A stretch of DNA of 64,000 nt, from contig JAGFZV010000005.1 in assembly GCA_017889545.1 (NCBI GenBank), positions 62,001 to 126,000 of the forward strand, in the 5' to 3' direction. Position numbers and translations under genes: made by a program. Source of the stretch: Bacillota bacterium. Lineage in GTDB: Bacteria; Bacillota; Negativicutes; CTSoil-072. Positions 30,159 through 43,906 of the stretch are shown here, in pieces; position 1 is the stretch's first letter; each line of letters starts with the position of its first letter. The notes beneath the pieces are model-generated. The model had not been told where the DNA came from, searched no databases, and worked only from the letters and a program-made list of their open reading frames with translations.

Positions 30159-31097
30159 CTACTTAAAATGAAACTTTCCTGCTATGGACCTGTAAACTGC
30201 TTCCAATAATTGGCCGTAATCAGCAAAATGCTCAATTTGGAACCATTGAATGTAAGACATTTTTTTGTACCAGGTTATTTGTCGTTTGGCGAAATGCCTT
30301 GTGGATTGTTTGATTCGCGAAATTGCAGTATCCAAATCGGTTTTGCCTTGCAAATGGGCGACAATCTCCTTATAGCCAATCGCCTGCATTGACTGTGCAT
30401 CCGGAGAAACTCCGGATGCCAGCAAATCGGATACTTCATCCAGTAATCCATGATGTACCATCTGGTCGACCCTCTGATTGATCCGCTCATAGAGGGTATG
30501 GCGTTCCATCATTAAACCAATCACCGCAGCTTCGTACATTAAGTTCCCATCAACAGTCTTTTTGCCTGTCAATAGTTTCTCACCAGGTTGTGCATGGGTC
30601 TCAAGTGCCCGAATAATACGGTTACGATCATTCGGGTGCAATTGACTGGCTATATGCGGTGCTACCGCGGCTAAGCGATCATGCAGGTATTGATTTCCGT
30701 ATATTTCTGCTTCCGCTTCCATTCTTTTCCGTTCAGGGTCATTTCCCGGCGCAGGGTGAAAAATGTACCCCTCCAGCAAAGCTTTGATATAAAGTCCTGT
30801 TCCTCCGCACAGGATCGGGATCTTATTTTGTTGATTCAGATCTGTAATTTGTTTGGCGGCAAGGTTTTGGAAGTCGACAACACTGAAATCTCCGGTAGGT
30901 GGAATAATATCAATAAGATGATGAGGTATTCCCTCTTGTTCTGTACGACTTGCTTTTGCAGTACCAATGTTCATGCCGGAATAAATCTGCATGGAATCGC
31001 CGGAAATGATTTCGGTATTTAGTCGATGGGCTAAGTCGATGCTGAGACGAGTTTTGCCTACTGCAGTTGGACCAATGATTACGATCAGTTTTTCCAT
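30159..31097 (-). CDS. miaA: tRNA dimethylallyltransferase
   Basis: Isopentenylates A37 of tRNAs reading UNN codons; 312 residues. P-loop IIGPTAVGKTRLS at residues 7-19, SGDSMQIYSGMNIGTAK and LCGGTGLYIKALLEG are typical. MiaB, the next enzyme in making ms2i6A, is encoded 5 kb upstream in the transcription direction. Overlaps the methyltransferase gene by 13 bases. Confidence 0.95.
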   Translation of the reverse strand: MEKLIVIIGPTAVGKTRLSIDLAHRLNTEIISGDSMQIYSGMNIGTAKASRTEQEGIPHHLIDIIPPTGDFSVVDFQNLAAKQITDLNQQNKIPILCGGTGLYIKALLEGYIFHPAPGNDPERKRMEAEAEIYGNQYLHDRLAAVAPHIASQLHPNDRNRIIRALETHAQPGEKLLTGKKTVDGNLMYEAAVIGLMMERHTLYERINQRVDQMVHHGLLDEVSDLLASGVSPDAQSMQAIGYKEIVAHLQGKTDLDTAISRIKQSTRHFAKRQITWYKKMSYIQWFQIEHFADYGQLLEAVYRSIAGKFHFK

Positions 31098-37917: not shown

Positions 37918-38286
37918 TTATTTCTTTGTTTTTGCAAAAATCATTTTTATCCCGGTGAAAATGATAAAAATACCAAAAATTTCCTGCAAATATTTTGCTG
38001 GTACCATCTGTACAAAATTAGAACTAATCAGCGTGCCGGATATGGCCCCAAGAGCTAAGTAAAAGGCTGCTTGATAATTGATAAGTTTTTCTTTATGAAG
38101 ATGATATGCGCCTGATAATGCTGTCGGGATAATAACTAAAAGTGAAATTCCCTGTGCTGTATGTTGTGTCAAACCCAGGATAAAAACCATAACAGGAACG
38201 AGAACAATTCCGCCGCCAACTCCCAACAATCCGCTTAAAACCCCGGCGCAAAGGCCGCTGAATAATGTCAATATTATCATTATCAT
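37918..38286 (-). CDS. TauE/SafE half-length membrane protein (second gene)
   Basis: A 122-residue protein with about four helices and the TauE/SafE motif GVLSGLLGVGGGIVLVPVM. Normal TauE/SafE exporters have two such repeats in about 250 residues; here each gene carries one. It overlaps the preceding half gene by four bases. Together they could form a heteromeric sulfite/organosulfonate or other anion carrier. Substrate unknown. Confidence 0.82.
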   Translation of the reverse strand: MIMIILTLFSGLCAGVLSGLLGVGGGIVLVPVMVFILGLTQHTAQGISLLVIIPTALSGAYHLHKEKLINYQAAFYLALGAISGTLISSNFVQMVPAKYLQEIFGIFIIFTGIKMIFAKTKK

Positions 38287-38639
38287 AGACTTATCATCCT
38301 TATTCCAACTAATACAAGCAAAACTCCGAACATGCGTTTTAATTGAGCTGCAGGGATTTTTTTCATTGTTTTTGCGCCAATGGCGGCCCCAATGATACTG
38401 CCGATCGCCAAGTTCATTGCAACTGACATGTCAAGTTGCCCGTGAAATCCATAAATGATACTGCTCGCGATTGCTGTTGGCACAATGACTGCAAGTGAAG
38501 TGGCATGTGCTTGGTGTTGGCTTAAATTAAAATAGGATATCATAATAGGAACCATGATAATGCCCCCGCCAACTCCTAGAAGACCGCTTAATATGCCGGC
38601 GAAAAAACCGCCGATTGTCAGTTTGCTCTTTTTACCCAT
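38283..38639 (-). CDS. TauE/SafE half-length membrane protein (first gene)
   Basis: A 118-residue protein with GILSGLLGVGGGIIMVPIM and three further helices (HATSLAVIVPTAIASS, MNLAIGSIIGAAIGA, MFGVLLVLVGIRM). Sequence pairs well with the second half gene, so the two are internal repeats encoded separately. Complete as a half: start ATG with GGAGAAATAA and stop in frame, no sign of a frameshift joining them, because both have their own start. Confidence 0.82.
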   Translation of the reverse strand: MGKKSKLTIGGFFAGILSGLLGVGGGIIMVPIMISYFNLSQHQAHATSLAVIVPTAIASSIIYGFHGQLDMSVAMNLAIGSIIGAAIGAKTMKKIPAAQLKRMFGVLLVLVGIRMISL

Positions 38640-38721: not shown

Positions 38722-39546
38722 TTATTCGATGCTCAAACGTTTTACTTCAATATTTACTTCTTTTACAGTCATTCCGGTCATATACTCGACCATATTTTTG
38801 ATCCGCTCTTGAGCATGGTGAAGAACCTCCCATAATGAAACTCCATATTTTATAGTTACATCCAGAGATATCGAAATTCCTTTTTCTGCGTCGTTTGAAT
38901 TTTTAATAACAATTTGCGCAGTTTTCGTTAATAAAGGATCTTCTGTTGCAACTAAGTTCACAATTGTAGCAATAGCAGAATCAGACATCAATAATTTACC
39001 ATAATAGCTAAAGATTGGACGGATAATAGATTTTTCTCCTAATCTTCGGCGTTTGGTTTGTGGTTTTTTAAAAAATATTTCCAAAGGATCAATGAGGTAG
39101 CCAGAAAAATGAGGCTTTAGTTCAACGGTAGGTACCGGGATAACATGCTTGCCGTCTTTTAATCGACTGTCTCTGGCTTTCGCTATTTCAGCTTTCGTCG
39201 CAATATCTTCAATGTGAATAAATTGAGACACAGGCGGTAAGTTGAGTGTAGCGACGATTTTCCTGACCATATTTTCAGATGTGCCGAGTATAAGGATTTT
39301 ATCTGGGTGAACTTCTTCAATCACTTTTTGTACTTCTTCTGCATGTTCAGGTTCCATGAAAATGGCTCTACGCACAGCCTTAATTTTACTCGGTTCTTTT
39401 TTTGCTGAATGGCCGGCGATGATTTTACTGTCTTTAATTAGAAGACCATCATCAATGATTGTGTCGATATTATGTTCATGCGCAACAACAAGAGCTCGAT
39501 GGCTTTTGCCTGTACCGCTCGGGCCTACAAATGCGATGACTTCCAC
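38722..39546 (-). CDS. P-loop NTPase fused to Asp23/Gls24-like domain
   Basis: A 274-residue protein with two parts. Residues 1-135 are a P-loop domain (IAFVGPSGTGKSHRALVVA; IDDGLLI as candidate second motif). Residues from about 175 form an Asp23/Gls24-like domain (KLLMSDSAIATIVNLVATED, then VSLWEVLHHAQERIK). Gls24 proteins are usually standalone envelope-stress proteins, so this is an unusual fusion. GTG 39546 with AAGGAGG is the supported start. The neighbour upstream is a PHP phosphoesterase. Function unknown. Confidence 0.75.
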   Translation of the reverse strand: MEVIAFVGPSGTGKSHRALVVAHEHNIDTIIDDGLLIKDSKIIAGHSAKKEPSKIKAVRRAIFMEPEHAEEVQKVIEEVHPDKILILGTSENMVRKIVATLNLPPVSQFIHIEDIATKAEIAKARDSRLKDGKHVIPVPTVELKPHFSGYLIDPLEIFFKKPQTKRRRLGEKSIIRPIFSYYGKLLMSDSAIATIVNLVATEDPLLTKTAQIVIKNSNDAEKGISISLDVTIKYGVSLWEVLHHAQERIKNMVEYMTGMTVKEVNIEVKRLSIE

Positions 39547-39570
39547 GAGCTCATTCCTCCTTAGCACCCA

Positions 39571-40422
39571 TTAAAAACAACCACCTCTTCCAATCATGGA
39601 CAAGCGCTGTAAATTCAAAACCAATTCGTCAGGGATGGTGAATATTCCCAATTTCTCAGGAAAACGGTCAGGCGTAGCATGAAAATCAGACCCGCCGGTA
39701 ATTGCCAAATGATATTTTTCAGCGAGGTTTAAATATTCTTTTGTTTGGGATTTTGTATGTGACGGGTGATATACTTCAAGACCTTGAACACCGGAGTGAA
39801 TCATATCGAGCACTACTGAGTCATCGGCAATCAGGCCTGGATGGGCTAACACCGGGATACCGTTGGCTTGGTGAATTAAAGTGATGATTTGTGCAACGGA
39901 AAGTTTATAATGAGGTACATAACCAGGCCGATTTTGTTCCAGCAAGACGTCGAATACGGAACTGATAGAAGGAAAATAGTTTTTTTCGACTAAAACTCTG
40001 GCTATATGCGGTCTGCCGATGGTTGATTTTTCACCGGCAACTGCAAGAACTTCATCATAGTGAATATCATAGCCTAACGCGGCAACTTTTAAAACCATTT
40101 TTCTGGCCCGGTCACGACGGTTCACATGCAGAACCTGCAATTGTTTTCGTAAAATAGGGTTTTTTATATCAATGTAATAACCGAGAATATGGATTTCTCG
40201 TTGGGGCATATCCGTACTGAATTCAATGCCGGGGATTACAGTCAAACCGTGATAGTCTTTGTTATCGCCCTGATAAATGGCTTGAATCCCGTCTATTGTA
40301 TCATGATCCGTAATTGCGATGTGGGAAAGACCGGCTTGTATGGCCATGTCCACAATCATCTGGGGAGCCAACATGCCATCAGAGGCATCAGTATGAATAT
40401 GCAGATCAGATGCCATGTACAT
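39571..40422 (-). CDS. PHP-domain phosphoesterase (RNase AM/YciV-like)
   Basis: 283-residue PHP enzyme with DLHIHTDASDG, AITDHDTIDG, GIEFSTD, VLAHPG and GGSDFHA, the complete metal set. E. coli YciV (RNase AM) is a 5'-3' exonuclease and 3',5'-bisphosphate nucleotidase of this type; that identity is inferred. ATG 40422 or 40416. Overlaps pepA by 17 bases and precedes the P-loop fusion gene by 24 bases. Confidence 0.85.
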   Translation of the reverse strand: MYMASDLHIHTDASDGMLAPQMIVDMAIQAGLSHIAITDHDTIDGIQAIYQGDNKDYHGLTVIPGIEFSTDMPQREIHILGYYIDIKNPILRKQLQVLHVNRRDRARKMVLKVAALGYDIHYDEVLAVAGEKSTIGRPHIARVLVEKNYFPSISSVFDVLLEQNRPGYVPHYKLSVAQIITLIHQANGIPVLAHPGLIADDSVVLDMIHSGVQGLEVYHPSHTKSQTKEYLNLAEKYHLAITGGSDFHATPDRFPEKLGIFTIPDELVLNLQRLSMIGRGGCF

Positions 40423-41923
40423 GCGCCAACCTTTGGATGAGTTCTACCAAAGTACGAACTCCGACGCCCGATGCGCCCTTAACGTTATATCCGTTTTCTT
40501 TATCCGAATTTGCAGTTCCTGCAATATCAATATGAAGCCATGGAGTATTAGCAGCAAAATGTGCAATGAATAAACCTGCAGTAATTGTGCCAGCCGGTCG
40601 GCCGCCCGTGTTTTTTAGATCAGCAATATCACTTTTAATTTGTTCCTTATATTCTTCAAAAAGTGGTAATCGCCACATCTTTTCTCCCGTCGACAAAGAT
40701 GCAGATTTTAGCATCTCCCACCATGCTTCATTATTGGTCAATACTCCGGATGCTACATTGCCAAGTGCGGTAATACAAGCGCCGGTTAATGTAGCGACAT
40801 CAATAATTCGGGTAACTCCAAGTTTTATTGCATGATTCACAGCATCTGCCAAAATAAGTCGTCCTTCGGCATCTGTGCTGATGATTTCAATTGTACTGCC
40901 TTTTTGGGATGAAATTACATCACCAGGCTTGAGTGCATTTCCGGAGGGCATATTTTCTGTACAAGGGATCACAGCGATTACGTTGGTTTTCGGACGAAGT
41001 TGACCGATTGCTTCCATTGCTCCCAGTACAGCAGCACCGCCCGCCATATCATCTTTCATTTCGCACATGTTTTCAGAAGGTTTGATTGATATTCCTCCGC
41101 TGTCAAACGTAATGCCCTTACCAATCAATGCGGTAAGTTCCGAACTATCGGGATCTCCTTTGTAAGTAAGAATAATCATTTTTGGGGGCTCGCTGCTTCC
41201 CCTGGCTACGGCTAACAATGCATGCATTTGTTCAGCCTTCATTTGGTCTTGATCAAGAATTTGACTGTCAAAATGATATTGAGCGGCGAGGTGCTCAGCA
41301 TACTGTGCCATTCGTGACGGGGTCATATACTGAGGCGGATGATTTACTAGATTCCGGGTATTATTTACCGCGTTAGCGATTATTACCGCTTTATTTGCGC
41401 TTTGCAGCAATGTTTCATGTTGCAGAGCATCAGAATAGGCAAAGTAAATCGTAGTGAGAGAAACAAGTTTCTGCGGTTCTGTTTTGTAGTAATTGAATTC
41501 GTATGTTCCTAAGATGGTTCCTTCTATCACTGCTTGTACGATTTTTTCCAGTCGGAATTCGCTATTGATCTTTTCAAAAGAAAAAAATAATGGCATGGCG
41601 GAATGATAATGTAAGTCGACGATTTTACGCATGACAATAGCACTTAATGAACGAATTTTATCGAGAGTAAGTTCTTTTGCTTTTCCTGAACCAGCAAGAA
41701 GCACCACTTGAGGAGTCATCTTGCCTAAGGTATAAAGAGGCAATAGATGACCAAAACTCGAACAATCAGGAGCTCTTTTAATTATGCTGCTGACATGACC
41801 GTTCAGTAATTCATCAATTTCCGAAAAAAACGGGTGTAGTATGGTTTCATCTTCAAAAATGGGTAAAATAAGAACATCACAAGGGATGGTCAAACAGGAA
41901 TCTTGTGTAAATGTAATTTGCAC
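40406..41923 (-). CDS. pepA: Leucyl aminopeptidase (M17)
   Basis: 505-residue cytosolic zinc/manganese aminopeptidase. The catalytic region has GKGITFDSGGISIKPS, MKDDMAGGAAVLGAM and the signature TDAEGRLILADA (usually NTDAEGRL, here STDAEGRL). Start GTG 41923 with GGAAGTG. Own promoter upstream. Confidence 0.94.
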   Translation of the reverse strand: MQITFTQDSCLTIPCDVLILPIFEDETILHPFFSEIDELLNGHVSSIIKRAPDCSSFGHLLPLYTLGKMTPQVVLLAGSGKAKELTLDKIRSLSAIVMRKIVDLHYHSAMPLFFSFEKINSEFRLEKIVQAVIEGTILGTYEFNYYKTEPQKLVSLTTIYFAYSDALQHETLLQSANKAVIIANAVNNTRNLVNHPPQYMTPSRMAQYAEHLAAQYHFDSQILDQDQMKAEQMHALLAVARGSSEPPKMIILTYKGDPDSSELTALIGKGITFDSGGISIKPSENMCEMKDDMAGGAAVLGAMEAIGQLRPKTNVIAVIPCTENMPSGNALKPGDVISSQKGSTIEIISTDAEGRLILADAVNHAIKLGVTRIIDVATLTGACITALGNVASGVLTNNEAWWEMLKSASLSTGEKMWRLPLFEEYKEQIKSDIADLKNTGGRPAGTITAGLFIAHFAANTPWLHIDIAGTANSDKENGYNVKGASGVGVRTLVELIQRLAHVHGI

Positions 41924-43302: not shown

Positions 43303-43821
43303 CTATTTATTAAATACGATTACACGTCCATCCTCACGGATGCCGACAAGTCGGCGGCCAGAGCAACTCCTGGTAGCATTGTTCAGCATGTTATCAATCA
43401 GTTCCTCTTGTAAGAATAACTCTTCGTCCAACATCGTTTCACCGGCATCAACAATTAATGAAGCTCGGAATTGTTCCTTCAACAGAGAGATTGTCAATGC
43501 AATTTCACCTTTTGTCAGAGTCCGTATATCACGAATAATATGGAGCATGGCAACATTTTCGTAAGTGCTTAAGTGAATGTCAACATTTTTGTCTGTTATT
43601 CCCTCAATGCAATGATAAACCGCGATACTGTCGAGCAGCATTTTACGCGCCTTTAAAAATTCTTCTTCTAATGGTATGCCGGATAGCATAAAAGTTTGTT
43701 TTAAAGTGTGAGTCTCCGGATCAAAGCTTATCGTAGTAATTTCCGGATATCGGATCAAAATAGAAATCAGCAAGTTAACTCCGTCAGCAACTTGTTCGTT
43801 ATCTTGAATAAATTTCGGCAT
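43303..43821 (-). CDS. Conserved-looking protein, unknown
   Basis: A 172-residue soluble protein beginning MPKFIQDNEQVADGVNLL. The middle has LSTYENVAMLHIIRDI and the end is a Glu-rich helix (MLDEELFLQEELIDNML) followed by a small GIREDGRVIVF strand. The start is ATG 43821 with GGTGA; 17 upstream residues are unlikely. It lies between nadC and ymdB on the same strand, with gaps of 37 and 85 bases. I recognise no family. Confidence 0.6.
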   Translation of the reverse strand: MPKFIQDNEQVADGVNLLISILIRYPEITTISFDPETHTLKQTFMLSGIPLEEEFLKARKMLLDSIAVYHCIEGITDKNVDIHLSTYENVAMLHIIRDIRTLTKGEIALTISLLKEQFRASLIVDAGETMLDEELFLQEELIDNMLNNATRSCSGRRLVGIREDGRVIVFNK

Positions 43822-43906
43822 ATCATTCACCATCCAATACATGTCTAATGTTATAGTGCGATTATACACCATATGAGGTGTAATTGAAAGGCTGCTGAGA
43901 GTCCTC

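Follow-up and report, generated by a model that had tools for sequence, protein, structure and literature searches.

A P-loop domain joined to an Asp23/Gls24 domain in an ancient single-copy protein family of Negativicutes and Clostridia

Introduction

Proteins of the Asp23 family occur widely and in high abundance among Gram-positive bacteria, but what they do at the molecular level is not known (PMC6954212, PMC5437119). In Staphylococcus aureus, Asp23 polymerises into filaments that are tethered to the membrane through AmaP, and loss of either asp23 or amaP induces a cell-wall stress response (PMC6954212). In Bacillus subtilis, the relative YqhY has been linked to the control of lipid synthesis, where it appears to restrain acetyl-CoA carboxylase (PMC5437119).

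Here we describe a protein in which an Asp23 domain follows a P-loop NTPase half within a single chain. The gene lies in a window (the whole stretch of DNA analyzed) of 64,000 nucleotides from a Bacillota bacterium of the class Negativicutes. No paper describing this architecture was found in the open literature searched, where it is apparently undescribed. A relative in RefSeq, WP_158648977.1, is named 'Asp23/Gls24 family envelope stress response protein', and this current name hides the NTPase half.

Results

A first-pass annotation of the window had placed the motifs GPSGTGKSHR, KLLMSDSAIATIV and VSLWEVLHH within one 274-residue chain, and all three are present. The gene begins at a GTG codon at 39546, preceded by AAGGAGG at 39556-39562 (spacing 9 nt). 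This start was chosen over the GTG at 39567 because the longer frame begins upstream of the ribosome site. The 274-codon chain is a genuine gene, and the fusion that it encodes is real. Its features are as follows:

38722..39546, minus strand: fusion coding sequence, 274 aa; P-loop NTPase half, conserved joint and Asp23 domain; single-copy ortholog family
39154..39546, minus strand: NTPase core, residues 1-131; b1-P-loop-a1-b2-hairpin-a-a-b3-a-b4-a, an AlphaFold2 block with pLDDT 87-98
39502..39525, minus strand: Walker A GPSGTGKS, residues 8-15; K14 and S15 invariant (119/119), G8, G11 and G13 in 118/119
39400..39453, minus strand: DDGLLI...AGxSAK motif, residues 32-49; D32, D33, G34, S47 and K49 invariant; paired by hhalign with MiaA DSxxVY...IGTAKP
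39277..39282, minus strand: T89-S90 at the end of strand 3 (83-88), the usual position of the Walker B acid; LILGTS, no D/E; T89 in 117/119, S90 in 119/119
38989..39153, minus strand: conserved joint, residues 132-186; GKHVIPVPTVELKPHFSGY ... EKSIIRPIFSYYGKL; lowest sequence entropy
38725..39006, minus strand: Asp23/Gls24 domain, residues 181-274; assigned by PF03780 (E=4.6e-12), hhalign to canonical Asp23 and Foldseek

AlphaFold2 modelled the full chain with a mean pLDDT of 77 and residues 1-171 alone with 85, and both models agree. The predicted elements are all-soluble alpha/beta: strand 2-7, the P-loop, helix 14-24, strand 29-32, a hairpin (35-38/41-45) and further helices, followed by strand 83-88, a helix, strand 106-111 and a helix running to residue 131.

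Assignment of the C-terminal half was confirmed. Its profile search, named by the first-pass annotation as the refuting test for the fusion, returned Asp23, with PF03780 matching the fusion chain at 46.8 bits against a cut-off of 28. All 56 aligned relatives matched the same profile. By hhalign, canonical Asp23 proteins from this class, among them the copy encoded in this genome, aligned over 87-91 columns (E 1.9e-13 to 6.6e-14, about 33% identity). The match spanned columns 1-94 of the C-terminal half and included both its first helix (KLLMSDSAIATIV) and VSLWEVLHH. Foldseek placed this half in a ferredoxin-like fold of the CDF-CTD type. The same genome also encodes a canonical Asp23 together with an AmaP-like protein, next to genes identified by eye as efp and nusB.

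Profile searches of both halves had been suggested, and only the C-terminal search delivered a family; no Pfam or NCBIfam family scored above cut-off for the NTPase half. Neither half recovered a relative in a single-sequence search of solved structures. The structures that Foldseek placed near the NTPase half were mainly kinases (NMP, cytidylate, thymidylate and shikimate kinases) and P-loop GTPases (GPN/SRP-type). As the best of these reached only E=7.4e-3 and gluconate kinase gave a TM of 0.45-0.47, which is not close, any assignment to a P-loop class is tentative. A whole-chain Foldseek match to Era (1ega) was discarded (TM 0.23, rmsd 18).

A second resemblance emerged with MiaA. By hhalign, 87 columns aligned with three motifs in order (E=3.4e-6, probability 88%), although the resemblance is weak in profile score (21-22 bits); AroK, Gmk and Cmk aligned over 17-30 columns of the P-loop region only. 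Searched over the whole genome, the MiaA profile matched MiaA itself and the fusion protein (E=3.4e-4) and nothing else; it also matched the fusion ortholog in a second genome (G008), and MiaA matches were present in 25 of 25 genomes searched. The fusion scored 21.3 bits with TIGR00174, far from the equivalog cut-off of 148.65, and a true MiaA is encoded at 30159-31097 of the window. Since MiaA was not among the matches shown in the reverse PDB profile search, nor among the top Foldseek matches, the resemblance is a lead and not membership. Paralogy with another NTPase of this genome was discounted, as the next best match there reached only E=0.03.

Conservation across the family revealed which parts of the protein are most strictly kept. 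Fifteen residues (K14, S15, A18, D32, D33, G34, S47, K49, A61, S90, M93, A124, R128, H134 and P137) were identical in all 119 aligned sequences, and a further six (G8, G11, G13, T89, P177 and G183) were nearly so. Ten of the invariant residues (K14, S15, D32, D33, G34, S47, K49, S90, R128 and H134) resemble those of an active site. The identity of K14, S15, D32, D33, G34, S47 and K49 in every sequence places the N-terminal P-loop beyond chance. In the alignment and the AlphaFold2 model, the conserved Walker A motif (GxxGxGK[ST]) sits after strand 1 and the DD pair at the end of strand 2. The acidic Walker B residue expected after hydrophobic strand 3 is absent; LILGTS occupies this position, where T89 and S90 are conserved instead. 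Together with the PF03780 match, the invariant Walker A residues bear out that a single chain combines a P-loop half with an Asp23 half.

Sequence entropy was lowest in two segments of the joint (0.79 bits for residues 132-152 and 0.92 for 171-186), intermediate in the NTPase core (1.40) and highest in the Asp23 half (2.32). The joint is thus the most conserved stretch of the fusion protein, and the Asp23 half the most variable. Despite this low entropy, residues 138-186 were modelled in the monomer with pLDDT below 50, as might be expected of a segment that becomes ordered only with a ligand or partner.

The annotation had called for a search for the fusion in other Negativicutes, and the fusion proved to be nearly universal there. 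A search with the complete protein matched 60 of the 61 class genomes, in 59 cases over essentially the full length. The single genome with no match is 74% complete, and one partial match sits at a contig edge. Across the phylum, a profile of the NTPase half found the family in 168 of 399 sampled genomes, all at E 1.6e-47 or better, and the open frame was at least 269 aa in all listed cases. Twenty divergent members searched separately with a full-length profile were all fused end to end. A stand-alone NTPase half was found neither among the listed frames of the 399 genomes, searched with the NTPase-only profile, nor among these 20. Most genomes lacking the fusion still matched the full-length profile, though less strongly (E around 1e-6 to 1e-11); we take these matches to be their ordinary Asp23 proteins. 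Longer frames of 370-560 aa, seen in some high-GC genomes and in G047, resembled larger fusions, but reading them showed that the extra length is low-complexity or GC-rich sequence from starts placed further upstream.

The family was single-copy in every positive genome of the phylum sample but one. This exception (G210, contigs C194 and C344) carries two copies with equal scores in an assembly with 7% contamination, and the second copy is likely a duplicate contig. In a tree of 56 members, all Negativicutes fell on one side of a branch (support 89/98), with the protein of the window grouping with Sporomusaceae. The gene tree follows taxonomy, as expected for vertical inheritance with patchy loss. 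In a scan of genome contigs, the best 80 loci were all from Bacillota. Recurrence of the same fusion in more than 200 genomes rules out chance or an assembly artefact. Mobile-element cargo was likewise rejected: no phage or viral-contig relatives were found, and the only plasmid-labelled replicon was one of Monoglobus. The fusion is therefore an ancient orthologous family of Negativicutes and many Clostridia, not peculiar to this genome. The annotation had presented the fusion as unusual; it is real, but it is the normal state of the lineage, never seen split, and so not a novel joining.

The gene run in the window starts with pepA and PHP and continues with the fusion, a pair of half-size TauE genes, miaB and mutS; a terminator-like site lies upstream of pepA at 42084-42053. 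The two genes preceding the fusion are:

40406..41923, minus strand: leucyl aminopeptidase (M17), pepA; first gene of the pepA-PHP-fusion run
39571..40422, minus strand: PHP-domain protein, RNase AM/RNM-like, upstream neighbour; PF02811 at 1.7e-10, NCBIfam NF041577/NF047791 below cut-off

The PHP nuclease-like neighbour to which the annotation had drawn attention does adjoin the fusion, and it does so in most Negativicutes loci examined. At the non-Negativicutes loci examined, homology searches detected no PHP gene next to the fusion. As this neighbour is conserved only within Negativicutes, the link is weak as functional evidence. Elsewhere, the fusion gene was flanked by genes for sigma-54, a DnaD/DnaB-like protein, SfsA, Rex or a DNA glycosylase. 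In one clade of gut Clostridia (loci L118-L150, e.g. L126, L132 and L140), cmk and plsC lie directly downstream; the fusion is just upstream of cmk, plsC and typA in most of these loci, often within a few bases of cmk, which suggests co-transcription with phospholipid and nucleotide genes in this clade. Among the loci examined, no partner gene was conserved across lineages, and no envelope-stress gene was a conserved neighbour.

Two other features of the region were recorded. The TauE/SafE permease is split into two half-size genes (37918-38286 and 38283-38639, minus strand, overlapping by 4 bases), with PF01925 matched in its C-terminal half by the upstream gene and in its N-terminal half by the downstream gene. 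This two-gene form occurs in nine of the ten Negativicutes loci with TauE homologues, the remaining locus having one 257-codon frame. A 189-aa protein with no Pfam match (43303-43872, minus strand) adjoins ymdB; in most Negativicutes loci it is conserved next to ymdB/spoVS, with 31-57% identity.

Discussion

Our data lead us to propose, tentatively and at a little under even confidence, that the protein is a P-loop phosphotransfer-type enzyme borne on an Asp23 domain that positions it at Asp23/AmaP assemblies, within an ancient, vertically inherited, single-copy family. Two observations favour an enzyme of this type: the active-site-like residues never vary in the alignment, and the neighbours in fold are mainly kinases and P-loop GTPases. 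The N-terminal half would be a divergent small-kinase-type P-loop enzyme with some motif resemblance to MiaA, predicted most likely to bind a nucleotide and transfer a group to a small substrate. Homology suggests that the Asp23 half positions this enzyme, most likely through incorporation into Asp23/AmaP assemblies beneath the cell membrane; judged from its sequence, the Asp23 domain probably mediates membrane docking. The conserved joint would probably fold over the active site or a partner and so couple both halves. The protein may also have a role in envelope or lipid upkeep. The proposal is supported by the unbroken fusion in 60/61 class and 168/399 phylum genomes, by a tree ordered by taxonomy, by the Asp23 and AmaP-like pair of the same genome and by the cmk-plsC neighbourhood. 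Against it stand the distance of the best structural matches, the missing acid on strand 3, the weak MiaA resemblance (21-22 bits), the lack of a cross-lineage partner gene and the restriction of the cmk-plsC neighbourhood to one clade.

The first-pass annotation had instead suggested an ATP-controlled envelope sensor. In such a regulator, nucleotide binding by the P-loop would switch how the Asp23 half polymerises or binds the membrane. The behaviour of S. aureus Asp23, which polymerises and whose loss, like that of amaP, induces the cell-wall stress response (PMC6954212), agrees with such a regulator, and the invariant joint would suit coupling between the halves. However, the AlphaFold element list contains neither a sensing domain nor a membrane segment, and an envelope-stress gene is nowhere a conserved neighbour in the loci examined. 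Conservation reverses the emphasis of that annotation: the NTPase active site and the joint are most kept and the Asp23 half least, the opposite of a scaffold with an added switch. For this reason, an enzyme on a scaffold looks likelier than a sensor with an ATP switch, and we consider the regulator unlikely. Absence of the strand 3 acid from LILGTS, together with the failure to match known catalytic families, might point instead to a structural protein in which the nucleotide-binding P-loop is a stabilising site. Two invariant Asp residues along with Lys, Ser, Arg and His, held with no exception in 119 divergent sequences, are difficult to reconcile with a non-catalytic role, making it distinctly unlikely. 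The MiaA resemblance raises the alternative of a P-loop half that would modify RNA or a nucleotide, with dimethylallyl diphosphate as its ligand in place of ATP. Order and extent of the three motifs (87 columns, compared with 17-30 in the P-loop region for AroK, Gmk and Cmk), the restriction of MiaA profile matches in the genome to MiaA and the fusion, and the proximity of miaB, with miaA a few genes off in the window, all speak for such a prenyltransferase. Yet a score of 21 bits against a cut-off of 148, loss of the rest of MiaA, a separate true MiaA here and MiaA matches in all 25 genomes searched, and the absence of MiaA from the top Foldseek or reverse profile matches leave it highly unlikely.

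Returning to an enzyme carried by an Asp23 domain, the NTPase half and joint are conserved across distant Bacillota with neither a Pfam/NCBIfam family above cut-off nor a close solved fold. It is conceivable, if doubtful, that the N-terminal half founds an undescribed family of P-loop enzymes, present in about 40% of sampled phylum genomes, whose catalysis is carried on an Asp23 scaffold. If so, the Asp23 family would gain an enzyme partner, and the membrane role of Asp23 assemblies a direct biochemical handle. In this single-copy Asp23 relative, which always comes joined to an invariant P-loop active site, there is a candidate enzyme for assays.

Comparison with known systems

The protein belongs with the Asp23/Gls24 family (PF03780; S. 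aureus Asp23, B. subtilis YqhY/YloU) by its C-terminal half, which scores above the Pfam cut-off. Classic members are single-domain, whereas in the fusion 180 residues of NTPase and joint precede the Asp23 half, which has strongly diverged from the canonical copy of the same genome. AmaP (NF033218), the membrane anchor of Asp23, is likewise a two-part protein with an Asp23-like domain at its end, and 49 of 56 fusion-family members match it weakly; the fusion of the window scores 25.4 bits against a cut-off of 55, with the match confined to profile positions 85-166. The N-terminal part of AmaP is transmembrane, while that of the fusion is a soluble P-loop half.

Strand 2 ends in an Asp in shikimate and gluconate kinases as well as in the NTPase half of the fusion, and small P-loop kinases (gluconate, shikimate, NMP) are among the Foldseek neighbours of this half. 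It differs from them in a TM of about 0.45 at best, a strand 3 with no acid, a hairpin after strand 2 and a distinct C-terminal motif, KHxIPVP. With MiaA/IPT (TIGR00174, PF01745), it appears to share, in matching order, the P-loop, an Asp motif with (T/S)AK after it and a G-T motif on a hydrophobic strand, but it lacks the MiaA C-terminal region and coexists with a separate true MiaA.
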